Source: Candidatus Contendibacter sp. (GTDB lineage: Bacteria > Pseudomonadota > Gammaproteobacteria > Competibacterales > Competibacteraceae). From it: a DNA stretch of 40,072 bases. Where the stretch lies: NCBI GenBank assembly GCA_008933795.1, contig WBUJ01000015.1, forward strand, positions 1 to 40,072, read 5' to 3'. The position numbers were made by a program, and so were the translations under genes. Below are positions 145-13,342 of the stretch, piece after piece. The notes under the pieces are model-generated. The model was not told where the DNA came from. It worked only from the letters and a program-made list of their open reading frames with translations, and did no database searches. Numbering within the stretch: the first letter of the stretch is position 1; every line of letters begins with the position of its first letter.

Positions 145-345
145 GGCGGCAGGCAACAAAAACCTTGCCGGAGCGGCGTGGGGACCAAGCGGCGCGGCGG
201 TCTGGCTCCCGCGCCGAAGCGGGGGAGCCCGCCCCGGCCCGATGTGGCTACTTGGCGAACCGCTGGACTGCTACGATTCCGGACCCATCCCCGCGCCGGA
301 ACGCGGGAACGAGAACCGATCAAAACTTTTGCGTCAGCCCGCTAG
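145..345 (-). repeat. Degenerate MITE-like repeat, copy 1
   Basis: Read on the minus strand from 345, this stretch matches the left end of the complete copy at 17145-17341: CTAG, then GCTGACGCAAAAGTTTTG, then a GTTCTCGTTCCCG hairpin region. The other half matches more loosely, with a GGGAGCCAG block and GTTGCCTG. The second terminal inverted repeat is not recognisable, so the boundary near 145 is approximate. It fills most of the gene-free 1-504 stretch. I see no convincing gene there, only shadow reading frames. Confidence 0.6.
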
Positions 346-504
346 GCGTAATCGGTCGGCAGGTCGCGCCGCAACGCGGTCAACACCAGTTCGCCCGCCT
401 CGGGACTGGCCACGCCGAGCGATCAAACAGAAGTTTAGTCTTGGGTCAGTAGCTTGGCACGATGCTTGATTGGGACTGGGAAAGCACAGAGAAGAGGATG
501 CACG

Positions 505-2274
505 ATGAAACCGAACCGCCAGGCAAGCGAACATACTTTTCGAAGCTGGGATGGCGCCGAATTGTTCTACCGGGCATGGCTGCCCGAACCGGGCGTTACC
601 CAAGCAGTCATCCTGTTCCATCGCGGCCACGAGCATTCCGGCCGCTGGCGGGAGGTGGTGGATCAACTCGATCTGCCCGATTTCGCCCTGTTCGCCTGGG
701 ATGCCCGTGGTCACGGTCGCAGCCCCGGCGAGCGCGGCTACGCGGAGCATCTTGGGGTGCTGACGCGGGACGTGGATACGTTTGTCGGCCACGTTTCCCG
801 CCATTACGGCATCCCGATGGAGAACATCGCCGTGCTCGCGCATAGCGTCGGCAGCGTGCTGGTTTCGACTTGGGTCCACGACTACGCGCCGAAAATCCGC
901 GCCCTGGTGCTCGGCAGCCCGGCATTGCGGGTTCGGCTGTACGTTCCCTTTGCGATTCCGGGCCTGCGCCTGTTGCTGAGGTTCAAGCCGAAAGCCTTCG
1001 TCAACAGCTACGTCAAGGCGAAATTGCTGACTCACGATCCCGCCAAAATCGAAAGCTACGACGCCGATCCGCTGATTACCCGTTGCATCGCGGTCAATCT
1101 GCTGGTGGATTTGTTCGACGCGGGCCGCAAGCTGGTGGAGGACGCGGCGGCGATTACCGCGCCGACCCTGGTGCTGACCTCCGGCGCGGATTGGGTGGTG
1201 GATCAGGACATCCAGCGTCAGTTCTTTGAGCGGCTGGGTTCGCCGGTGAAGGAAATGCATGTTTATCCCGGCTTTTTCCACGACACCTTCAACGAGAAGG
1301 ACAATCATTTGCCGCTGAGCGCCGCGCGCCGCTTCATTCTGGAAGCCTTCGCCCAGCCCCGCCGGGAACCGTCCTTGCTGGAGGCCGACCGTAACAGCCC
1401 GACCCAGCGCGAGTACGAAACCCTGGCCAATCCGCTGTTGCCCTTTTCGTTCAAGGGCATCCAGTACGCCTTGACGCGCTGGATGATGAGAACCCTCGGC
1501 GCCCGGTTGAGCCAGGGCCTGAAGCTCGGCGTGGAGACCGGCTTCGATTCGGGCGCGACCCTGGATTACGTCTATCGCAACCAGGCCGAGGGGTTGACCG
1601 CGCTGGGCCGGCTGATCGACCGGAATTATCTGAACGCCATCGGCTGGCGGGGCATTCGCCTGCGCAAGGCGCACCTGGAAAAACTGCTGCGCCGGGCCAT
1701 GACCGAGCTGCGCGCGGCGGGTCAGCCGGTTCACATCGTGGATATCGCCGCCGGCCACGGCCGTTACGTGCTGGATGCCGTGCGGGAGCATTCCGCAATT
1801 CCCGCAACCGGCCTGTTGCGGGATTTCAGCGATGCCAACGTGGAAGCAGGGCGGCGACTCATCGCCGAATACGGTCTCAACGACCGTTTCGCCTTTGATC
1901 GGGGGGATGCTTTTGATCGGACCAGCCTCGCCGCGCTGCCCCGAATCGCCACCATCGGCATCGTCTCCGGTCTGTATGAACTATTCCCCGCGAATGCCCC
2001 GGTGCGCGCGTCCCTGGCGGGTCTGGCCGAAGCAGTCGCTCCTGGCGGCTATCTGCTTTACACCGGCCAACCCTGGCACCCGCAGATCGAATTCATCGCC
2101 CGGACGCTGACCAGCCATCGGAACGGTGCGCCGTGGGTGATGCGGCGTCGGACCCAGCAGGAAATGGATCAACTGGTCGCCGAGGCCGGTTTCGAGAAAA
2201 TCGCGCAAGAAGCCGACCCGTGGGGGATTTTCACCGTATCGCTGGCCCGACGGCGGGCGAGGGCAGCGTCATGA
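505..2274 (+). CDS. ynbC: Bifunctional alpha/beta hydrolase / SAM-dependent methyltransferase (YnbC-like)
   Basis: A 589-residue fusion protein. Residues 1 to about 300 are an alpha/beta hydrolase of the monoglyceride lipase or lysophospholipase type. The nucleophile is Ser114 in AHSVGS, with a late Asp candidate in SGADWVVD and His in GFFHDTF. Residues about 400-580 form a class I methyltransferase with the SAM-binding motif VDIAAGHGRY near residue 412. The start at 505 is preferred over 454 because an AGAGGA sits just upstream and the hydrolase homology begins at once. The stop overlaps the next start (ATGA). The same fusion accompanies CDP-alcohol phosphatidyltransferase and CdsA paralogues in the uncharacterised E. 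coli ynbABCD operon. Its substrate is unknown, and a lipid is inferred from the neighbours. Confidence 0.85.
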   Translation: MKPNRQASEHTFRSWDGAELFYRAWLPEPGVTQAVILFHRGHEHSGRWREVVDQLDLPDFALFAWDARGHGRSPGERGYAEHLGVLTRDVDTFVGHVSRHYGIPMENIAVLAHSVGSVLVSTWVHDYAPKIRALVLGSPALRVRLYVPFAIPGLRLLLRFKPKAFVNSYVKAKLLTHDPAKIESYDADPLITRCIAVNLLVDLFDAGRKLVEDAAAITAPTLVLTSGADWVVDQDIQRQFFERLGSPVKEMHVYPGFFHDTFNEKDNHLPLSAARRFILEAFAQPRREPSLLEADRNSPTQREYETLANPLLPFSFKGIQYALTRWMMRTLGARLSQGLKLGVETGFDSGATLDYVYRNQAEGLTALGRLIDRNYLNAIGWRGIRLRKAHLEKLLRRAMTELRAAGQPVHIVDIAAGHGRYVLDAVREHSAIPATGLLRDFSDANVEAGRRLIAEYGLNDRFAFDRGDAFDRTSLAALPRIATIGIVSGLYELFPANAPVRASLAGLAEAVAPGGYLLYTGQPWHPQIEFIARTLTSHRNGAPWVMRRRTQQEMDQLVAEAGFEKIAQEADPWGIFTVSLARRRARAAS

Positions 2275-2882
2275 TCAGTCTGTACGCGCTCAAACCAGGA
2301 TTCCAGAACCTGCTGCGGCCGGTCGCGCGCTGGCTGCACGGTCGCGGCGTCAGCGCCAATCAGGTCACGGTCGCCGCGCTGGTGCTGGCGGTCGCCGTGG
2401 CCGGGGTCATTGCGCTGTGGCCAACGCCGGCGACGCTGTTGCTATTGCCGCCGGTGTTGTTCCTGCGCATGGCGTTGAACGCCCTCGACGGAATGCTGGC
2501 CCGCGAGTTTCAGCAACCGACTTCGTTGGGAGCGGTGCTGAACGAACTGGGCGACGTGCTGGCGGATGCCGCGCTGTATCTGCCGCTGGTGCTGATGCCC
2601 GGCGTATCGGCTACGCTGGTCGTGGCGCTGGTGCTGCTGGCGCTGCTCAGCGAATTCTGCGGCGTGGCGGCGGTGCAAATCGGCGCCCGTCGCCGCTATG
2701 ACGGACCGATGGGCAAAAGCGACCGCGCCCTGCTGCTCGGCGGGATCGCGGTGTTGCTGGGTTGCGGCGTACCGGCCGGTTTCTGGTTGACGGTTACGCT
2801 GTGGGTTGCCAACGGCTTGTTGATTCTGACCTGTTTCAACCGATTGCGGGCCGCGCTGCGGGAGGTAACGCCATGTCCATAA
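2271..2882 (+). CDS. ynbA: CDP-alcohol phosphatidyltransferase family protein (YnbA-like)
   Basis: A 203-residue integral membrane protein with several hydrophobic helices. It carries the CDP-alcohol phosphatidyltransferase signature in variant form, NALDGMLARE then GAVLNELGD. In the usual pattern D-x2-DG-x2-AR-x8-G-x3-D-x3-D, the first and third aspartates are Asn here, while the second and fourth Asp remain. From memory, E. coli YnbA has the same substitutions, so this is probably a family trait rather than decay. Members transfer a phosphatidyl group from CDP-diacylglycerol to an alcohol. The acceptor is unknown. The start overlaps the ynbC stop and the 3' end overlaps the cytidylyltransferase start by 10 bases, implying coupled translation. 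Confidence 0.85.
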   Translation: MISLYALKPGFQNLLRPVARWLHGRGVSANQVTVAALVLAVAVAGVIALWPTPATLLLLPPVLFLRMALNALDGMLAREFQQPTSLGAVLNELGDVLADAALYLPLVLMPGVSATLVVALVLLALLSEFCGVAAVQIGARRRYDGPMGKSDRALLLGGIAVLLGCGVPAGFWLTVTLWVANGLLILTCFNRLRAALREVTPCP

Positions 2883-3799
2883 CTCTGGCATCGCCGGTGC
2901 TGGCAATCCTGGGCGGGGTGTGGGCGCTGCTGGCGCTGGCGACCGCCGTGGTGTGGTGGCTGGCGCCGGCGCCCGACAGCGAATTGCGCCAGCGGGTTCG
3001 CAGTTGGTGGCTGATCGTGGCGCTGTGTTCGCTGGCGCTGATGTTCAGCCGCGCCGCCGCTCTGGTGTTTTTCGGCGTGATCAGCTTCCTGGCGCTCAAG
3101 GAATACCTGACCCTGATTCCCACCCGCCAAACCGACCGCCGGGTACTGTTCTGGGCCTATCTGAGCATCCCGATGCAGTACTTCTGGATCGGGATCGAAT
3201 GGTACGGGATGTTCATCATTTTCATCCCGGTTTACCTGTTCCTGCTGCTACCGGTGGCGATGGTGCTGACCGGGGAAACGCAGGGCTATTTGCGCGCCGC
3301 CGGCACGCTGCATTGGGGCTTGATGAGCATGGTGTTCAGCCTGAGTCACCTGGCCTATCTGCTGGTGCTGCCGCAAGGGGAATATGCCCATGTCAACGGT
3401 CCGGGCTTGGCGCTGTTCCTGCTGGTGCTGACCGAGTTGAATGACGTAGCGCAATACTGCTGGGGCAAGCTGTTGGGCAGGCACAAAATTTCGCCTGCGG
3501 TCAGCCCGAACAAGACGGTGGAGGGCTTTGTCGGTGGGGTGTTGACCACTGTACTGCTGGCGGCGCTGCTGGCGCCGTGGCTGACGCCGTTCTCCGTCCT
3601 CGATGCGCTGCTGGCCGGTGCGCTGATCGCGGTGGCCGGCTTCTTCGGCGACTTGAGCCTGTCGGCGCTGAAGCGCGATCTCGGCATCAAGGATAGCGGC
3701 AATCTGTTGCCGGGCCACGGCGGCATTCTCGACCGGGTGGACAGCCTGACCTACACCGCGCCGCTGTTCTTTCACTTCACCCGCTACTTCTATTTTTGA
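2873..3799 (+). CDS. ynbB: Phosphatidate cytidylyltransferase (CdsA family, YnbB-like)
   Basis: A 308-residue polytopic membrane protein that should make CDP-diacylglycerol from phosphatidate and CTP. The CDS-family signature is complete near the C-terminus: SALKRDLGIKDSG followed by LPGHGGILDRVD. The start at 2873 follows GGGAGG at good spacing and lies inside the end of the preceding transferase gene. Its place between a phosphatidyltransferase and an acyltransferase suggests a dedicated supply of CDP-diacylglycerol to this operon rather than the housekeeping cdsA, which is normally near uppS and dxr. Confidence 0.9.
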   Translation: MSITLASPVLAILGGVWALLALATAVVWWLAPAPDSELRQRVRSWWLIVALCSLALMFSRAAALVFFGVISFLALKEYLTLIPTRQTDRRVLFWAYLSIPMQYFWIGIEWYGMFIIFIPVYLFLLLPVAMVLTGETQGYLRAAGTLHWGLMSMVFSLSHLAYLLVLPQGEYAHVNGPGLALFLLVLTELNDVAQYCWGKLLGRHKISPAVSPNKTVEGFVGGVLTTVLLAALLAPWLTPFSVLDALLAGALIAVAGFFGDLSLSALKRDLGIKDSGNLLPGHGGILDRVDSLTYTAPLFFHFTRYFYF

Positions 3800-4419
3800 A
3801 CGCCACCATGGGCTACGCCGCGCTGCGCTGGTTATTTTTCCTGCTGATCGTCAAGCCGTTTCTGCTGCTGGCGGTCGGGGTCAACGTGCGCCACCGCGAC
3901 CGCCTGCCCGCCGCCGGTCCCGCCCTGATCGTCGCCAACCACAACAGCCACCTCGATGCGCTGGTGTTGATGGCGATGTTACCAGTGTGGTTGTTATCCC
4001 GCGCGCGGCCGGTGGCCTCGGCGGAGTACTTTCTGAGCAATCGCTGGCGGGCTTGGTTCGCCACCCGCGTGATCGGAATCATTCCAGTGGCGACCAGCGG
4101 CGTCCGGTCGCACGCCGACGTGCTGGGGCCGGTGCGGGATGCGCTGGCGGCGGGCGACATCGTGATCTTTTTCCCGGAAGGCACTCGCGGCGAACCGGAA
4201 CGGTTGGGCAAACTCAAGACTGGCATCGTCTGGCTGGCCCAGCAGTTGCCGACCATGCTCATTTATCCGGTTCGTCTGCACGGGCTGGGCAAGGTGTTGC
4301 CCAAGGGCGACTGGTTGCCGGTGCCGTTCTTCTGCGACGCCTGGGTGGGCGAGCCGCTGCATTGGAGCGGTGACCGACGCCAGTTCCTGGCCGCGTTGTC
4401 GGCAAGCCTGGGAGGTTAG
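3796..4419 (+). CDS. 1-acyl-sn-glycerol-3-phosphate acyltransferase (PlsC family)
   Basis: A 207-residue protein with an N-terminal hydrophobic segment. The acyltransferase HX4D motif is NHNSHLD at residues 48-54, and the glycerophosphate-binding motif FPEGTRGEP begins near residue 126. The family acylates lysophosphatidate, or related lysolipids, to make phosphatidate, the substrate of the CdsA-type enzyme encoded just upstream. The TTG at 3796 overlaps the previous stop (TTGA). ATG at 3808 is an equally possible start four codons in. It closes the lipid operon, and hsdR begins only three bases after its stop, so the two blocks may share a transcript. Confidence 0.88.
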   Translation: MNATMGYAALRWLFFLLIVKPFLLLAVGVNVRHRDRLPAAGPALIVANHNSHLDALVLMAMLPVWLLSRARPVASAEYFLSNRWRAWFATRVIGIIPVATSGVRSHADVLGPVRDALAAGDIVIFFPEGTRGEPERLGKLKTGIVWLAQQLPTMLIYPVRLHGLGKVLPKGDWLPVPFFCDAWVGEPLHWSGDRRQFLAALSASLGG

Positions 4420-4422
4420 GGG

Positions 4423-6831
4423 ATGGAACCGTCGGTTATGGCCATTTCGGTTGAGCGTCTGGACTTGTCCCTCAGCGAAGCCGACACCCGCGCCAAGCTC
4501 ATTGACCCCGCGCTGCGGGCGCGGGGCTGGACCGAGGACCTGATCCGGCGCGAGGAAACCGCCGGGACCATCGAGATCATCGGCGGCAAGGCGCGGCGGC
4601 GGGCGCGCGGTCAGGTGGATTACACCCTGCGGCTCAAAATCGCCGTCGCGGCCCAACCGGTGGCGGTGGCGCTGATCGAGGCCAAGAAGGAAAGCTTGCC
4701 GCCGGGTCACGGTCTCGATCAGGCCAAGGCTTACGCGCACAGCAAGCGGCTTAACGTGCCTTTCGTCTTTGCTTCCAACGGCCATCAATTCGTCGAATAC
4801 GACCGTTTCACCGGCCTGACCCAGCCGCCGCGTCCGCTGAATGAGTTTCCCACGCCGGAAGAACTGCGCCGGCGTTACGAACAGGGCATGGGTTTCAGTC
4901 TGGACGACGAGGCTGCGAAACCGTTGTTGACGCCCTATCCGGGTGGCGAGGGCGGGCGACGGTATTACCAGGACGCGGCGATTCGGGCGGTGCTGGAGAA
5001 GATCGCCCGTTGCCAGTGCGGTGACGAGCCTCGGCGCGCGCTGCTGGCGCTGGCTACCGGCGCGGGCAAGACCTTCATCGCGGTGAATCTGCTCAAGCGC
5101 ATCGCCGATGCCGGCCAGTTGCGGCGGGCGCTGTTCGTCTGTGACCGCGACGAGTTGCGCGCGCAGGCGCTGGGCGCGTTCCAGAACGTGTTCGGGGCCG
5201 ACGCCGCCGAGGTGTTCAAAACCCCGGACGGCGGCAACAACGCCAAAAATGCCCGCGTTCACATCGCCACCTATCAGACCCTCGGCGTGGAAGGGGAGGG
5301 CAATGATGCCAGCTTTCTGACCACCTGTTACCCGGAAGACTCTTTCAGCCATGTGGTGATTGATGAGTGTCACCGTTCGGCCTGGGGCAAATGGTCGCAG
5401 GTGCTCACGCGCAACCCGAACGCGGTGCAAATCGGCCTGACCGCCACCCCACGCCGGATCAGGATCGGCAAGCGCACCCGGGAAGCCGAGCAGGACGCGC
5501 GGATCGCCGCCGACAATCTGAAATATTTTGGGGAGCCGGTCTACGAGTACGACATGGCCCAGGCCATGGAAGATGGCTATCTGGCGGTATGCGAGATCGT
5601 GAAGGGGCGGGTGAATCTGGATCATACCGGCATCACCTTGGAGGAGATCATGGCCCGCTTCCCGCGAGACGCGGTGACCGGTCGGCTCATTAGCAGGGAC
5701 GAGTTGAAGGAGCGGTACGAGAAAACCCAGTACGAGGACCAGATTCTGTTGCCCGACCGGGTGTTGGCGATGTGCCAGGATTTGTTCGACTCTTTGCTGG
5801 CCACCGGCGGCCCGGAACAGAAGACCATCATTTTTTGCACCCGCGACCGCCATGCCGATGATGTGGCGGCGGTGATGAATAATCTCTACGCCCGCTGGTG
5901 CAAGGCTAATGGCCGGGAACGGCTGGACTGTTATGCTTTCAAATGCACCGCCGCTGCCAGCGGCAACGACCAGTTGCCGGATTTTCGCGGCGCGGCGCGA
6001 CACCACTTCATCGCTACGACCGTGGATTTGCTGACTACCGGCGTGGACGTGCCCGCCGTGGGCAACATCGTGTTTTTCAAATACGTGCGCTCTCCCATCA
6101 GCTTTTACCAGATGATCGGTCGCGGGACCCGTATTGATCTGGCCACCGGCAAGCTGATGTTCCGGGTTTACGACTACACCGGCGCCACCGATCTATTCGG
6201 CTTGGAGTTCGTGACGCCGCCGCCCTCGTCCGGTGGCGCGGGCGAAAATCCGCCGCCACCTTACGCCACCGTGATCGTGGACGGGTTTGATGTGCGGGTG
6301 AGCGAGGCCGGGCGCTTCGTGATCGTTCAGGAGGATGGTCAGGCCAGGCCGATTGCGGTGGAGGAGTACAAATCCCGGTTGGCGACCCGCTTGATCGCCG
6401 AAGCGCCGACGCTGGAGGAATTCCGGCGGCGCTGGACCCAGCCGGAGGAGCGGCGGGCGCTGCTGGATCGGCTGGTGCATTCCGGCTATGCGCCCAGCGT
6501 GTTGCAAATGCTGGAAGAGATGAACGATTACGATTTATACGACGTGCTGGCGGATTTGGGGTTTGGGCTGTCGCCGCGCACCCGCAGTGATCGGGCGCTG
6601 GCGTTCGGCTACAAGCACGAGGATTGGTTGCGGGGTTTGCCGGAGCCGACCACCGCCGCGATTCGCGCCATTGTCAGCCAGTTCGAGAAAGGCGGCACCG
6701 ACGGGCTGGAAAATCCTAAAATCTTCCAGACGCCGGAAGTCAAAAAGGCGGGTGGTCTCGCGGCCCTGCAAGCGGGCGGCAAACCGGCGGATTTGCTGAC
6801 GGAGACCAAGATCAGGATGTTTTCGGCGTGA
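4423..6831 (+). CDS. hsdR: Type I restriction enzyme, R subunit (EcoEI-like)
   Basis: An 802-residue motor and nuclease subunit of a type I restriction-modification complex. The N-terminal HSDR_N nuclease has GQVDY and then IEAKKE near residues 65-90, the D...ExK pattern. The superfamily 2 helicase core has Walker A ATGAGKT at residues 210-216 and motif II DECH near 312. A helicase C domain follows with TTVDLLTTGVDVPAVGN and QMIGRGTR, then an EcoEI-type C-terminal region. The start at 4423 follows GGAGG at 4411-4415. ATG 4438 is an alternative. Length is normal for the EcoEI subgroup. The gene looks intact and has no promoter gap of its own behind the lipid operon. Confidence 0.95.
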   Translation: MEPSVMAISVERLDLSLSEADTRAKLIDPALRARGWTEDLIRREETAGTIEIIGGKARRRARGQVDYTLRLKIAVAAQPVAVALIEAKKESLPPGHGLDQAKAYAHSKRLNVPFVFASNGHQFVEYDRFTGLTQPPRPLNEFPTPEELRRRYEQGMGFSLDDEAAKPLLTPYPGGEGGRRYYQDAAIRAVLEKIARCQCGDEPRRALLALATGAGKTFIAVNLLKRIADAGQLRRALFVCDRDELRAQALGAFQNVFGADAAEVFKTPDGGNNAKNARVHIATYQTLGVEGEGNDASFLTTCYPEDSFSHVVIDECHRSAWGKWSQVLTRNPNAVQIGLTATPRRIRIGKRTREAEQDARIAADNLKYFGEPVYEYDMAQAMEDGYLAVCEIVKGRVNLDHTGITLEEIMARFPRDAVTGRLISRDELKERYEKTQYEDQILLPDRVLAMCQDLFDSLLATGGPEQKTIIFCTRDRHADDVAAVMNNLYARWCKANGRERLDCYAFKCTAAASGNDQLPDFRGAARHHFIATTVDLLTTGVDVPAVGNIVFFKYVRSPISFYQMIGRGTRIDLATGKLMFRVYDYTGATDLFGLEFVTPPPSSGGAGENPPPPYATVIVDGFDVRVSEAGRFVIVQEDGQARPIAVEEYKSRLATRLIAEAPTLEEFRRRWTQPEERRALLDRLVHSGYAPSVLQMLEEMNDYDLYDVLADLGFGLSPRTRSDRALAFGYKHEDWLRGLPEPTTAAIRAIVSQFEKGGTDGLENPKIFQTPEVKKAGGLAALQAGGKPADLLTETKIRMFSA

Positions 6832-6839
6832 GGACCGAA

Positions 6840-7091
6840 ATGATGACTGCAATGAAGATGACAAATGCGATTCTAGAAAGAGAAGAGGATTCGGCGTTTA
6901 TCGCTGAGTTGGAGAAAAAGTTAATACAGACTGACGACACAACCGCCCGCGCCCATCTCGATGCGGGATTTCCGATCTACTATATGGAAGAAAATACCCC
7001 TGAAAATTTGATCGTCAAGGAGTATCCAAATGGTCGGCGGCAATGGATATGCTTGGTTAATGACCAAGAACAAGTTGTTAAGGAACTATGA
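6840..7091 (+). CDS. Small protein upstream of zeta-like toxin, putative antitoxin
   Basis: An 83-residue acidic protein that I do not recognise by sequence. It is placed as an antitoxin only because it sits immediately before, and overlaps by ATGA, a zeta-type kinase gene. That is the usual layout of antitoxin then toxin. It has a charged N-terminal helix (EREEDSAFIAELEKKLIQ) and a more beta-rich second half ending NDQEQVVKEL. The start at 6840 is preferred because GAGGA lies five bases upstream. GTG 6828, overlapping the hsdR stop, is possible. Base composition is more AT-rich than hsdR, suggesting separate origin. Confidence 0.6.
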   Translation: MMTAMKMTNAILEREEDSAFIAELEKKLIQTDDTTARAHLDAGFPIYYMEENTPENLIVKEYPNGRRQWICLVNDQEQVVKEL

Positions 7092-7678
7092 TCCGGCCAC
7101 AGTTATGGATTATCGCTGGCCCCAATGGGGCAGGGAAAAGTACGTTTGTAGATAAGATCAACATCGCGCACCGTATTCCGCTTGTGAATCCTGACAGCAT
7201 AGCCCGTGCGCTGAGCGATAGAACTCATGCAAGTATTGAGGCCGGTCGGCAAGCTGTCGAAATGCGCCGGATATATCTTGCAAATAACACGAGTTTTGCC
7301 TTGGAAACCACATTGACCGGACACAGTGAACTGATGCTGATGGGCCAAGCAAAAGCAGCCGGTTACAAGGTGAATCTGGTTTACATTGGCTTGCCGAACG
7401 CCAGCTTGTCTCGACTCCGGGTCGCGGAACGGGTACGTCAAGGCGGTCACGATGTACCGCTAGCCGATATTTTTCGACGCTACAGCCGTAGCTTGCAAAA
7501 TCTTGCTCCGGCATTGGCACTGGCGGATCGTGCCTATGTGCTGGATAACGCCTATAAAGGCTGCCGTTTGTTGTTTTCCCTGGAAGCGGGGCGTATCAAA
7601 CATCGTTCGCTTAAAATGCCAGAATGGGCTAACCGAGCAATACCTGATTATTACCTAAATTTTGGTTCCGCAGGATGA
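7088..7678 (+). CDS. Zeta toxin family protein (COG4185-type P-loop kinase)
   Basis: A 196-residue P-loop protein with Walker A GPNGAGKST at residues 11-19, VNPDSIAR soon after, and the diagnostic RVRQGGHDVP followed by IFRRYSRSLQNL. These motifs mark the zeta-like family whose studied members phosphorylate UDP-N-acetylglucosamine or other small substrates. The substrate here cannot be read from sequence. It is translationally coupled to the small gene before it, and hsdS starts four bases after its stop. The pair therefore sits inside the type I R-M operon. It may stabilise the locus or act when restriction fails, but that is inference. Confidence 0.85.
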   Translation: MIRPQLWIIAGPNGAGKSTFVDKINIAHRIPLVNPDSIARALSDRTHASIEAGRQAVEMRRIYLANNTSFALETTLTGHSELMLMGQAKAAGYKVNLVYIGLPNASLSRLRVAERVRQGGHDVPLADIFRRYSRSLQNLAPALALADRAYVLDNAYKGCRLLFSLEAGRIKHRSLKMPEWANRAIPDYYLNFGSAG

Positions 7679-7682
7679 GGCC

Positions 7683-8831
7683 ATGAAGGAATTGAAAGAA
7701 TTACCGGCAGGGTGGCGGTGGGTTTGCATTGGGGAAATCTGCGAGTTTCAATATGGTAAATCACTACCAGAATCAAATAGAGCGTCGGGTAACGTGGCAG
7801 TTTACGGCTCGAATGGAATTGTCGGCTTTCATGAGATTGCTTTGACTACAGGACCGACAATTATAATTGGAAGAAAAGGCTCAATAGGTCAAATTCACTT
7901 TTCACCTGATCCCTGTTTCCCTATTGATACAACTTATTTTGTTGATCGATTGAGGAAAGATGTTGATCTCCAATGGTTTATTTATGCACTGCACATAGCT
8001 TCTCTAGACAAACTTAATAAAGCTAGCGGTGTTCCTGGTCTGAATCGTGAAGATGCTTATAAAGTATCTATTCCTCTCCTGCCTCTCCCCGAACAACGCC
8101 GCATCGCTGCTCTTCTCACCGAACAACTCGCCGCCGTGGAGCAGGCGCGTAAGGCCACTGAAGCGCAGCTTGAAGCGGTTTGCGCTTTACCTGCTACCTA
8201 TTTGCGGGAAGTATTCGAGAGTGAGGAGGCGAAGAAGTGGCCTCTACATAGAATTAGTGATTTCGCAGAAACTTGTAGCGGTACAACTCCTTCTCGTAGT
8301 CGTGCAGATTACTTTAGAGGAAATATACCTTGGATTAAAACTACAGAACTTAAAGATGGAGAGATTACACAAGCTGAAGAATATATTAATGACTTGGCAA
8401 TTAAGGAAACTTCTCTAAAGATACTTCCGAAAGGAACTTTATTGATTGCGATGTATGGACAGGGAAAAACACGAGGGCGTACTGGCCTCCTAAATATTGA
8501 GGCAACTATTAATCAAGCCTGCTTTGCAATTCTTGCAAAATCAGATGTATTTGATTCTCGTTTTTTGCAAATGTGGTTTATCCGTAATTATAAGAGGTTA
8601 AGAGATGAATCAGAATTTCGAGGAGGGAATCAACCAAATCTTAATGGTGAAATACTTAGAAATCAACAGGTCTGTTTGCCATCTATTCAAAAACAAAAGT
8701 CGTTAGTTATCGCTTATAATGATCGAATTACATTTCTAAAACAATTAAGCTCGGCAGTTGAAAACGAGGCTAAATTAGTGAACGATTTACCCTCTGCTCT
8801 ATTTCGACAGGCATTTTCAGGAGCCATCTAA
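7683..8831 (+). CDS. hsdS: Type I restriction-modification specificity subunit S
   Basis: A 382-residue DNA-recognition subunit that sets the target sequence for both methylation and restriction. It has two target-recognition domains, about residues 1-130 and 185-330, each followed by a conserved helical spacer. The central spacer is plain as LPLPEQRRIAALLTEQLAAV. The start at 7683 follows GGATGAGG. The spacer DNA (about 8080-8220) is GC-rich like the rest of the window, while both recognition domains are strikingly AT-rich. That is expected if recognition domains were swapped in from a foreign source. Both halves are present, so the subunit is probably functional and recognises a bipartite site. 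Confidence 0.93.
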   Translation: MKELKELPAGWRWVCIGEICEFQYGKSLPESNRASGNVAVYGSNGIVGFHEIALTTGPTIIIGRKGSIGQIHFSPDPCFPIDTTYFVDRLRKDVDLQWFIYALHIASLDKLNKASGVPGLNREDAYKVSIPLLPLPEQRRIAALLTEQLAAVEQARKATEAQLEAVCALPATYLREVFESEEAKKWPLHRISDFAETCSGTTPSRSRADYFRGNIPWIKTTELKDGEITQAEEYINDLAIKETSLKILPKGTLLIAMYGQGKTRGRTGLLNIEATINQACFAILAKSDVFDSRFLQMWFIRNYKRLRDESEFRGGNQPNLNGEILRNQQVCLPSIQKQKSLVIAYNDRITFLKQLSSAVENEAKLVNDLPSALFRQAFSGAI

Positions 8832-8833
8832 TC

Positions 8834-10606
8834 ATGCCGCGCGGTAATCTAAAAACCACCAGCGGCAAACCCCGCGCCACCCGCCAATCCGTCGATCAGG
8901 CCATCAAATCCATCTGCGACATCATGCGCCGGGGCAACATGGCCGGCGCGATGCAATATGTCCCGGAACTCACCTGGATTTTGTTCCTGCGCATCCTCGA
9001 CGAAATTGAAACCCAGGAGCAGGACGAAGCGGAAGCCCTGGGCATCGCTTTCACCCCCTCGCTGGCCGCGCCCTACCGCTGGCGGGACTGGGCCGCGCCG
9101 GCCGGAACCCAGCGCAAGGCTCTGGAAGACGGTAGGTCAGGCGGTTTTTTCGCCTTCGTCAACGGCCAGTTGCTCCCCCATCTCAAGCATCTGGAACGCC
9201 GGCCCGGCGCCACCGTGCGGCAAAAGATGATCAGCGAGATCATGAGCAGCGTGGAGCGGGTGCGCATCGACACCGAACGCAATTTCCGCGACGTGCTCGA
9301 CCGGGTTCACGACCTCAGCCAGCAGACGATTGACCCGACCCACGTTTTCACCCTCTCCCAGGTCTACGAAGGGCTGTTGCTCAAAATGGGAGAGAAAAAC
9401 AACGACGGCGGCCAGTTCTTCACCCCCCGCGAAGTGATCCGCGCCATGGTGCGGGTGATCGCCCCGCAAATCGGCGAGACGGTCTACGATCCCGGTTGCG
9501 GCACCGGCGGCTTTCTCGCCCAAAGCTACGAACACCTCAAACAGGCGCTCGACCGGGCCAGCGCACCAGCGGAACACTACACCACGCTCAAGGAACGCAC
9601 CTTCTACGGCCGGGAAAAGGAAAACCTGATTTATCCCATCGCCCTGGCCAATCTGGTGCTGCACGGCATCGACCATCCGCACCTCTGGCACGGCAACACC
9701 CTGACCGGACAGGAAAGCTACGGCGGGCTGTTCGAGGGCGCCCCCGCGCTGTTCGATGTCATCCTCACCAACCCGCCGTTCGGCGGCAAGGAAGGTCAGG
9801 ACGCTCAAACCCGCTTTGACTACAAAACCGGCGCGACTCAGGTACTGTTCCTGCAACACGTCCTCAAAAGCCTCAAACCCGGCGGGCGCTGCGGCATCGT
9901 GGTAGACGAAGGGCTGCTGTTTCGCACCAACGAAGACGCTTTTGTGAAGACCAAGCGCAAGCTGCTGGACGAATGCGAGCTCTGGTGCATCGTCAGCCTG
10001 CCGGCAGGCGTGTTCACCCAGGCCGGCGCGGGCGTCAAAACCAACCTGCTGTTCTTCACTCAGGGCCAGCCGACCCGGCGCATCTGGTATTACGACCTGT
10101 CCGAAGTGAAAGTTGCCAAGAAAAAGCCGTTCACCCTGGCGCATTTCGATGAGTTTTTCCATCTGCTGCCCGAACGCGGCGACAGCGCGCAAAGCTGGAC
10201 CGTGGACTTCACCACTCGCAAGCGCCGCGCCGCCGAGGAGGCGACGCCGTTGCACGAGCAGGCCCGGCAAAAGCGCCAGGAAGCCGCCCGGTGCAAGGAA
10301 CGCCTCGAAGTGCTGCGCATCCCGGATCGCCAGGACCGGGACTGGGCCGCCATCGAGCAGGCCGAACGCCAGATGCAGAGTCTTGCCAGGGAAGCCCGCG
10401 AACTGGCCAGCAAAGCCGAAGCTATCGAAAACGCCGTCTATGACCTCAAAGCGGTCAATCCCCATAAAACCCTGGAAACCGATGCTCGCACGCCCGCCGA
10501 ACTGCTCGATCTGATCGAGGCGAAAGGCCGGGAAATCGCCGAGGCGTTGGCGGTGTTGCGTTCCCTTACCCCCAACCCCTTTCCCAAAGAGAGAGGGTTA
10601 GGGTGA
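8834..10606 (+). CDS. hsdM: Type I restriction-modification DNA methyltransferase, M subunit
   Basis: A 590-residue N6-adenine methyltransferase subunit. The N-terminal HsdM_N helical domain covers about residues 15-170. SAM-binding motif I is DPGCGTGGFL from residue 219, and catalytic motif IV is NPPF from residue 313. A charged coiled-coil-like region (about residues 475-550) follows and probably contacts HsdS. The last 14 or so codons (SLTPNPFPKERGLG and stop) are encoded by a dispersed GC-rich repeat at 10563-10604, so the natural C-terminus may have been replaced. The gene starts two bases after the hsdS stop. Confidence 0.95.
   Translation: MPRGNLKTTSGKPRATRQSVDQAIKSICDIMRRGNMAGAMQYVPELTWILFLRILDEIETQEQDEAEALGIAFTPSLAAPYRWRDWAAPAGTQRKALEDGRSGGFFAFVNGQLLPHLKHLERRPGATVRQKMISEIMSSVERVRIDTERNFRDVLDRVHDLSQQTIDPTHVFTLSQVYEGLLLKMGEKNNDGGQFFTPREVIRAMVRVIAPQIGETVYDPGCGTGGFLAQSYEHLKQALDRASAPAEHYTTLKERTFYGREKENLIYPIALANLVLHGIDHPHLWHGNTLTGQESYGGLFEGAPALFDVILTNPPFGGKEGQDAQTRFDYKTGATQVLFLQHVLKSLKPGGRCGIVVDEGLLFRTNEDAFVKTKRKLLDECELWCIVSLPAGVFTQAGAGVKTNLLFFTQGQPTRRIWYYDLSEVKVAKKKPFTLAHFDEFFHLLPERGDSAQSWTVDFTTRKRRAAEEATPLHEQARQKRQEAARCKERLEVLRIPDRQDRDWAAIEQAERQMQSLAREARELASKAEAIENAVYDLKAVNPHKTLETDARTPAELLDLIEAKGREIAEALAVLRSLTPNPFPKERGLG
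10563..10604. repeat. Short dispersed C-run/G-run repeat, copy A, supplying the hsdM stop
   Basis: The pattern is ACCCCCAACCCCTTTCCC, a short linker, then GAGAGGGTTAGGG. It is shared with 16408-16441, 25046-25078 and 25117-25150. The arms are partly complementary and could form a hairpin in RNA. This copy overlaps the 3' end of hsdM and encodes its last residues and stop. Confidence 0.6.
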
Positions 10607-10655
10607 TGGAACCGTCTTCGGTAGAATGCCGGGGCTTCAACCAGGAGAGATGAAG

Positions 10656-12064: not shown

Positions 12065-13342
12065 ATGACCATGCCTTCCGACACTCCCCGGCGCTCTGGC
12101 CGGGACATTCTGCGGATTTTTGTCAGCGGCCGGATGCTGACTGCCCTGCTGATGGGCTTTTCCTCCGGCCTGCCGCTGCTGCTGGCCACCGGATCGGTGT
12201 TGCAAGCTTGGCTGAAAGAGTCGGGCGTCGATCTGGGCACCATCGGCCTGTTCGCGCTGGTCGGGCTGCCATACACGTTGAAATTTCTATGGGCGCCGCT
12301 GCTGGACCGCTTCACTCCCATCGCCGCGCTGGGCCGGCGGCGCGGCTGGCTGCTGCTGATCCAACTCACGCTGATCCTGGCGATTGCGGGATTGGGCCTG
12401 ACCGACCCCGCGCTGAGTCTGCCGGGAGTCACGCTAGCGGCGTTTCTGGTGGCGTTCTTCTCCGCCTCGCAGGACATCGTCATCGACGCCTACCGGCGCG
12501 AATCGCTGGCCGACGACGAGCAGGGCCTGGGTGCTTCGCTGTACGTCAACGGCTACCGGATCGGACTGCTGCTGTCCTCCGGCGGCGGACTGATCCTGGC
12601 CGATTTCATCCCATTTCAGGCGGTCTACTGGGTCATGGCGGCGGCAATGTTGCCCGGTTTGATCACCACCCTGTTCTGCGTCGAACCGGTGGTGCCAATG
12701 GGGACGCCCCGCACTCTGCGCGATGCAGTGGTGCAGCCGTTCGTGGAATATTTCTCGCGCCATGACGCCGTGCTGATCCTGTTGTTCGTGTTGCTGTACA
12801 AGGTCGGCGAGATGATGGCCAGCCAGATGACCACGCCGTTCTATCTGGACCTCGGTTTCAGCAAAACTGAAATCGGCACCATCGTCAAACTGTTTGGCTT
12901 CTGGGCGACGGTGATCGGCGGACTGCTCGGCGGGGTGCTGATGCTGCGGCTGGGCATGTACCGCGCGCTGTGGCTGTTTGGCGTGTTGCAGGCGATTGGG
13001 CTGATCGGCTTCGTCATTCTGGCCCGGCTCGGCCACAGCCTGCCCGGTCTGGCGCTGGCCATCACCAGCGAGAACCTGTTCAGCGGCATGGCGACCACGG
13101 CTTACGTGGCGTTCATGGCCACCCTCACCAACAAGAAATTCACCGCCACGCAATACGCCTTGCTCAGCAGCCTAATGGGTATTCCCCGAGTGATCGTCAA
13201 CACGCCGACCGGCTATCTGGCCGAGTGGCTGGGTTGGGAAGGTTTCTTCCTGTTCTGCATGTTGTCCACCGTGCCGGGCCTGTGGCTGCTGACCCGGTTC
13301 CGGGCGTGGATGGAGGCGGAACAATCCACGCAGCCCGTTTGA
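12065..13342 (+). CDS. ampG: AmpG-like MFS permease (muropeptide transporter family)
   Basis: A 425-residue major facilitator superfamily protein with about 12 hydrophobic segments. It has AmpG-family landmarks: SGLPLLLATGSVLQAWL, FLWAPLLDRF, GRRRGWLLL, and FFSASQDIVIDAYRRESL. AmpG imports anhydro-muropeptides from the periplasm for cell-wall recycling, so a peptidoglycan-fragment substrate is likely but not proved. ATG 12065 or 12071 may be the start, eight or more bases after the thiL stop. Its last three codons and stop lie in the left copy of a 45-bp repeat shared with the end of the convergent pat gene. Confidence 0.85.
   Translation: MTMPSDTPRRSGRDILRIFVSGRMLTALLMGFSSGLPLLLATGSVLQAWLKESGVDLGTIGLFALVGLPYTLKFLWAPLLDRFTPIAALGRRRGWLLLIQLTLILAIAGLGLTDPALSLPGVTLAAFLVAFFSASQDIVIDAYRRESLADDEQGLGASLYVNGYRIGLLLSSGGGLILADFIPFQAVYWVMAAAMLPGLITTLFCVEPVVPMGTPRTLRDAVVQPFVEYFSRHDAVLILLFVLLYKVGEMMASQMTTPFYLDLGFSKTEIGTIVKLFGFWATVIGGLLGGVLMLRLGMYRALWLFGVLQAIGLIGFVILARLGHSLPGLALAITSENLFSGMATTAYVAFMATLTNKKFTATQYALLSSLMGIPRVIVNTPTGYLAEWLGWEGFFLFCMLSTVPGLWLLTRFRAWMEAEQSTQPV

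Follow-up and report, generated by a model that had tools for sequence, protein, structure and literature searches.

The stretch of DNA analysed here (the window, 40,072 nucleotides) is a whole contig (C250, WBUJ01000015.1) of a Candidatus Contendibacter sp. draft genome (G000, assembly GCA_008933795.1), which comprises 4.38 Mb in 334 contigs and has an estimated completeness of 99.97%; the sequence is visible from base 1 only. On its plus strand, at 505-4419, four adjoining reading frames follow one another head to tail, and all are present. They encode orthologues of E. coli YnbC, YnbA, and YnbB and a PlsC-like acyltransferase. This set belongs to the known, unsolved ynb type of gene cluster, with the local variation that ynbD has been lost. 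The features of the locus are as follows.

505..2274, plus strand: ynbC orthologue, encoding a fusion of an alpha/beta hydrolase and an S-adenosylmethionine (SAM) methyltransferase (Pfam ID PF12146 and PF12147; 51% identity to E. coli YnbC)
2255..2270, no strand assigned: ynbD deletion scar, about 1.35 kb in close relatives (DNA alignment to loci L017 and L018; genome-wide YnbD search)
2271..2882, plus strand: ynbA orthologue, encoding a variant CDP-alcohol phosphotransferase (Pfam ID PF01066; 49% identity to E. coli YnbA; aligned to PDB ID 6h53)
2873..3799, plus strand: ynbB orthologue, encoding a CdsA-like CDP-diacylglycerol synthase (Pfam ID PF01148, E value 9e-70; 48% identity to E. coli YnbB)
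3796..4419, plus strand: plsC, encoding a PlsC-like 1-acylglycerol-3-phosphate acyltransferase (Pfam ID PF01553, E value 9e-21; motifs HNSHLD and FPEGTR; linkage to ynbA-ynbB independent of ynbC)

The reading frames and their Pfam matches bear out the four enzyme-coding genes that the earlier note, made from the sequence alone, had placed here. The ends overlap as that note had described for ynbC and ynbA (4 bp, the ATGA at 2271-2274) and for ynbA and ynbB (10 bp, 2873-2882), whereas ynbB and plsC overlap (by 4 bp) only with the TTG at 3796 as the plsC start. A start at the ATG at 3808, which would leave an 8-bp gap, is as likely, since in the relative at L018 the gene has its start ATG two codons before MGYAALRW. 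All four genes are kept in other genomes of the genus at 86-94% amino acid identity, and comparison of 78-86 loci shows their catalytic motifs to be conserved, so they are real genes and not chance open reading frames. YnbC is 82% identical in Competibacteraceae bacterium UBA6584 (L023) and 89% identical in L032.

Full-length blastp matches to E. coli YnbA, YnbB, and YnbC (48-51%) place the adjacent genes at 505-3799 in the ynbABC core and confirm the link to ynb that the earlier note had proposed. In E. coli K-12, as in the window, the genes are tightly packed on one strand. E. coli, however, has ynbD but lacks a plsC in the set, the reverse of the situation in the window, and the supposed match in gene order does not hold, E. 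coli having ynbA-ynbB-ynbC-ynbD and the window ynbC-ynbA-ynbB-plsC. The order of E. coli is not a defining feature of the ynb set, as the order varies widely. To call the locus a candidate for an undescribed system was too strong, given that ynbABCD is named in E. coli, an activity of YnbB has been published (PMC6362211, PMC7018664), and YnbD has already been the subject of experiments (PMC7413402). The plain four-gene account also missed the loss of ynbD, which the alignment to L018 and L017 and the genome search revealed.

Within the genus, two further genomes (G004 and G007, loci L017 and L018) have the gene order ynbC-ynbD-ynbA-ynbB-plsC. Their DNA aligns to the window at 86-89% on both sides of a gap of about 1.35 kb, which corresponds to ynbD and falls between 2255 and 2270 of the window. 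Window positions 2255/2260 and 2270, which nearly abut, correspond to 8763 and 10124 in L018 and, on the reverse strand, to 9186 and 10552 in L017, and the ynbC stop and the ynbA start now share the ATGA at this junction. The other Competibacteraceae (G004, G007, and L023) thus have the same order as the window apart from ynbD, which is present there and cleanly absent here; the 86-94% identity given above applies to G004 and G007. A search of the whole of G000 with the L018 YnbD sequence was empty, whereas the same query was positive in G004, G007, G014, G010, and G167. The empty search rules out that ynbD was relocated elsewhere in the genome, and the window carries the ynbABC set and not the full ynbABCD set. 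In the relatives, YnbD is composed of a PAP2_3/PAP2 region and a dual-specificity phosphatase domain; G000 encodes four other PAP2 proteins.

The clean junction and the high completeness of the genome speak for a real loss of ynbD rather than an assembly error. That the gap is an artefact of a draft in 334 contigs, and the true operon the usual five-gene set, is unlikely. All three other Competibacteraceae loci with the ynbA, ynbB, and plsC genes have ynbD, which would fit an artefact, but the junction preserves the ynbC stop and ynbA start as an ATGA overlap, YnbD is found nowhere in the nearly complete genome, and three further loci (L099, L133, and L136) likewise have no ynbD beside ynbC.

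We compared 86 YnbC loci, comprising 80 from a scan of genome contigs, the window, E. coli, and four relatives from the genus and family. In this sample, which is Pseudomonas-heavy and ranked by similarity, so that its counts are not rates, YnbA and YnbD are each found near YnbC in 81 loci, YnbB in 79, and PlsC in 78. Conservation of the set extends over Proteobacteria, Verrucomicrobia, and other groups, with the genes shuffled into at least seven orders. With the ynb genes abbreviated to their last letter and plsC to P, the order A-C-D-P-B is found in 60 loci, mostly of Pseudomonas, A-B-P-C-D in Chitiniphilus, Jeongeupia, Andreprevotia, Chromobacterium, and Verrucomicrobia, C-D-A-B-P in Competibacteraceae, C-D with P-B-A on the other strand in Kiloniellales, and A-B-C-D in E. 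coli. The persistence of the linkage despite these shuffled orders is strong evidence for a shared function of the ynb genes. The earlier note had named conservation of the genes together as the point on which its reading could fail, and they stay together in most loci. The same note had taken PlsC for an addition to the ynb set; its presence near ynbC in 78 of the 86 loci rules out a recent addition, and since ynbA, ynbB, and plsC occur as a trio even where ynbC is absent, PlsC is a normal member and E. coli, with no plsC in its set, is the exception.

Samples drawn evenly over taxa gave a view of the distribution. YnbC was found in 10 of 369 genomes of a class-level sample and YnbA (E value of <1e-40) in 19. 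Chance alone would place the two together in about 0.5 genomes, but they co-occur in nine, meaning that nine of the ten genomes with YnbC also have YnbA. At phylum level, YnbA (E value of <1e-50) was found in 25 of 299 genomes, with YnbC in 14 of the 22 checked; in each of these 14, no more than about 240 bp separate YnbC from YnbA. By these counts, the ynb set is widespread but patchy.

Parts of the set also occur separately. Nine sampled Gammaproteobacteria (L118-L126) have ynbA-ynbB-plsC together without ynbC or ynbD, while two members of the family (G014 and G010) have ynbC-ynbD without a nearby ynbA, the G010 copy of which lies on another contig. We read the set as modular, with a ynbA-ynbB-plsC core that would make a phosphatidyl compound and an accessory ynbC-ynbD pair that would tailor the product. 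This two-module structure may be new. In another genus of the family (G018, loci L007 and L022), we found a ynbC remnant with about 70-95 matching N-terminal residues and an internal stop, a case of gene decay. A membrane protein of about 145 residues with no Pfam match follows ynbD at L034 (13046-13486), with equivalents at L028, L030, L031, and L084. It occurs in Pseudomonas, Reyranella, Rhodocyclaceae, and Jeongeupia, where in most cases plsC lies on its other side, and looks like a sixth member of the ynb set; it was not seen in Competibacteraceae.

YnbA matches the Pfam family CDP-OH_P_transf (E value 6e-8) and carries the signature N70-xx-D73-G-xx-A-R...G87-xxx-N91-xxx-D95. This departs from the canonical class I signature D1xxD2G1xxAR...G2xxxD3xxxD4 and its four aspartates, as Asn stands at D1 and D3, whereas D2, G1, G2, and D4 are kept, which makes YnbA a variant branch of the CDP-alcohol phosphotransferase superfamily. 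Asn occupies both positions in all 81 YnbA homologues of the locus sample, including those from Verrucomicrobia, and the same holds for the homologues in stand-alone core trios and for a divergent second clade, with no exception among about 100 full-length homologues in all (the truncated YnbA of L126 shows the second Asn position only). The four other CDP-alcohol transferases of G000 have the canonical Asp at both D1 and D3. No paper that we found mentions the Asn/Asn signature, the literature covered being open-licence only and no search having been aimed at the signature alone; its universality in YnbA may be new.

The metal site of YnbA was assessed by sequence alignment to solved phosphatidylinositol phosphate (PIP) synthases; a single-sequence AlphaFold model was poor (mean predicted local distance difference test [pLDDT] score of 51). 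The nearest solved relatives are the mycobacterial and Renibacterium PIP synthases (E value 6e-15). In the profile alignment to the mycobacterial enzyme (PgsA1; PDB ID 6h53 and 6h59), N70, D73, N91, and D95 fall on D68, D71, D89, and D93, which coordinate two metals, with D93 as the presumed catalytic base (PMC6506517); the D93N substitution leaves nearly no activity (PMC4634129). R152 and R191 of YnbA, which do not vary among 29 diverse homologues, fall in the alignment on R155 and R195 of PIP synthase, which bind the phosphate of the acceptor and whose mutation cripples the enzyme (PMC6506517, PMC4634129). YnbA and PIP synthase therefore share, by sequence, the fold family, D2, D4, and the acceptor-phosphate arginines. 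They differ at D1 and D3 and at the residue after D4, which in PIP synthase is Arg94, reported to be conserved in users of inositol phosphate (PMC6506517). Its equivalent is Val96 in the window and is not Arg in YnbA proper, Arg being found only in the divergent second clade. As the two arginines are kept and the Arg94 position is not Arg, the acceptor of YnbA is probably phosphorylated, but probably not inositol phosphate.

The second clade (L128, L129, L130, L131, L132, L045, L092, and L097) is recognisable by an NRRPI or SRRPI N-terminus and has the Asn/Asn signature in common with YnbA and the Arg after D4 in common with PIP synthase. Its genes lie mostly beside those for PlsC and CdsA-like proteins and, in Verrucomicrobia, beside ynbC-ynbD. 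YnbA itself was once labelled a cholinephosphotransferase by EcoCyc, a label that was later withdrawn (PMC3781023).

YnbC combines a Hydrolase_4 domain (residues 33-266, E value 2e-67) with a Methyltransf_20 domain (residues 275-583, E value 5e-139). The hydrolase half matches monoacylglycerol lipases in sequence (PDB ID 6eic and 7p0y, E value 2e-31), with the triad Ser114, Asp229, and His259, of which Ser is present in 85 of the 86 loci and Asp and His in all 86. The methyltransferase half carries the SAM-binding motif I DIAAGHGRY and is predicted with confidence (pLDDT of 92.3) to adopt a class I, Rossmann-like fold; triad and SAM motif are conserved in nearly all of the loci. Each half thus resembles its known counterparts, the monoacylglycerol lipases and the class I methyltransferases, whereas their fusion into one protein is the feature of YnbC. 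The best structural match of the methyltransferase model is PDB ID 3ocj (Z score of 22.9 over 254 residues, root mean square deviation of 3.4), an entry whose title names no function. The many matches to natural-product methyltransferases were set aside as reflecting a shared common fold.

YnbB matches CTP_transf_1 with the E value listed above and shares with CdsA this domain and the C-terminal CDS signature (PROSITE PS01315 form, in a slightly relaxed pattern), which the window protein has and which occurs in 77 of 79 loci. G000 has a second, separate CdsA-type gene on contig C84, and YnbB is the clustered paralogue. E. coli YnbB synthesises CDP-diacylglycerol (CDP-DAG) in vitro and supports synthesis of the glycolipid membrane protein integrase (MPIase), but it cannot take the place of CdsA in bulk lipid synthesis (PMC6362211, PMC7018664). 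In PlsC, a match to the Pfam family Acyltransferase, the HX4D motif (HNSHLD) is found in 77 of 78 loci and FPEG (FPEGTR in the window) in all 78.

We consider it somewhat better than an even chance that the operon encodes a dedicated minor glycerophospholipid pathway running parallel to the housekeeping lipid pathway. PlsC would acylate lysophosphatidate to phosphatidate, YnbB would convert this to CDP-DAG and hand it over locally, and YnbA would transfer the phosphatidyl group to a small acceptor that carries a phosphate. In genomes that have it, YnbD would remove a phosphate from the product; YnbC would methylate the lipid or its head group, and its lipase-like domain would remove or remodel an acyl chain. 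We infer the acceptor, the order of these steps, and the roles of both YnbC domains, as we do the trimmed and methylated lipid that the window operon would yield. In G000, without ynbD, the phosphate may stay, one of the four other PAP2 proteins may remove it, or the pathway may be shortened. The ynb set is extra to the housekeeping lipid genes of this genome, as shown by the separate CdsA-type gene and the four other CDP-alcohol transferases, which rule out that the operon replaces the housekeeping pathway.

Several points weigh against this pathway. A single linear sequence of steps is not required by the gene content, because the core trio occurs without ynbC and ynbD, and ynbC-ynbD occurs without a nearby ynbA in two relatives. 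E. coli YnbD, which has no assigned function, failed to replace the phosphatases for phosphatidylglycerol phosphate (PGP) or undecaprenyl pyrophosphate (C55-PP) (PMC7413402). The predicted fold of the YnbC methyltransferase half matches known structures in a way that carries no information on its substrate, and a lipid product of the ynb set is known from no organism. Finally, YnbA could be inactive, because D1 and D3 are metal ligands in the solved relatives.

This last point leads to a reading in which YnbA has little or no catalytic activity and serves as a CDP-DAG-binding subunit that steers YnbB and PlsC, and in which the set would remodel or buffer phosphatidate and CDP-DAG without making a new head group. 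The replacement of two of the four signature aspartates by Asn in every full-length homologue is what such a subunit would allow, but there is no variation at D2, at D4 as the presumed catalytic base, or at the phosphate-binding arginines, some of which should have been lost across such a range of phyla if the enzyme were dead. We regard a non-catalytic YnbA as improbable.

It is doubtful, too, that YnbA makes a pyrophosphate-linked glycolipid, with a sugar-1-phosphate such as N-acetylglucosamine 1-phosphate (GlcNAc-1-P) displacing CMP from YnbB-made CDP-DAG to give GlcNAc-PP-DAG, the first MPIase intermediate (compound I), or a similar compound. YnbA lies beside YnbB in nearly all loci, with the phosphate pocket kept and the metal site altered. 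In E. coli, overproduction of YnbB raises MPIase, and YnbB supports the synthesis of MPIase but not of bulk lipids; compound I requires GlcNAc-1-P and CTP, and the authors could not exclude an extra, unknown factor (PMC6362211). However, compound I was formed by partially purified CdsA8, and the authors assign the reaction to CdsA; MPIase is essential whereas ynbB is not, and no clear change in MPIase followed when ynbB was deleted (PMC6362211). There is also no obvious place in this scheme for the methyltransferase-hydrolase YnbC. Equally speculative is the broader proposal that YnbA forms a distinct transferase branch in which the permanent Asn/Asn pair has changed both the metal site and the reaction. 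In its boldest form, YnbA would be the missing factor that couples the CDP-DAG made by YnbB to a sugar-1-phosphate, giving MPIase-like pyrophosphate-linked diacylglycerol glycolipids that YnbC and YnbD would tailor or recycle.

Least probable of all is a PIP-type pathway in which YnbA makes PIP, or a closely similar lipid with a polyol phosphate, for dephosphorylation by YnbD: the nearest solved relatives are PIP synthases, YnbD has PAP2_3 and dual-specificity phosphatase domains, and the NCBIfam models for archaetidylinositol phosphate and PIP synthases match YnbA, but they do so far under their curated cutoffs (67 of 180 and 51 of 170 bits), D1 and D3 differ, and the Arg94 equivalent is Val in the window and non-Arg in YnbA proper.

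Directly behind plsC, a type I restriction-modification island is inserted at window positions 4414-10616, with the following genes.

4423-6831: HsdR
6828-7091: small open reading frame before the kinase
7088-7678: Zeta-toxin/AAA_33-like kinase, between HsdR and HsdS
7662-8831: HsdS
8834-10606: HsdM

A 20/21-bp direct repeat, GGTTAGGG(T)GATGGAACCGTC, borders the island on both sides, at 4414-4433 and 10596-10616, and L018 has the empty site with a single copy of the repeat (12268-12288). The gene at 4423, being the HsdR of this inserted island, is ruled out as a member of the operon. On the other side, within window positions 338-454, bases 338-420 match L018 at 5595-5677 (88%), and the window lacks about 1.28 kb that L018 has between this match and the operon. 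The upstream region differs in all three members of the genus.

In E. coli K-12, the ynb genes have long been a puzzle, and YnbB has a backup role only (PMC6362211). The persistent linkage of the genes, both wide and shuffled, shows a shared pathway in many Proteobacteria, and the split into core and accessory modules, together with the invariant Asn/Asn signature of YnbA, makes the old question of what the ynb genes do directly testable.

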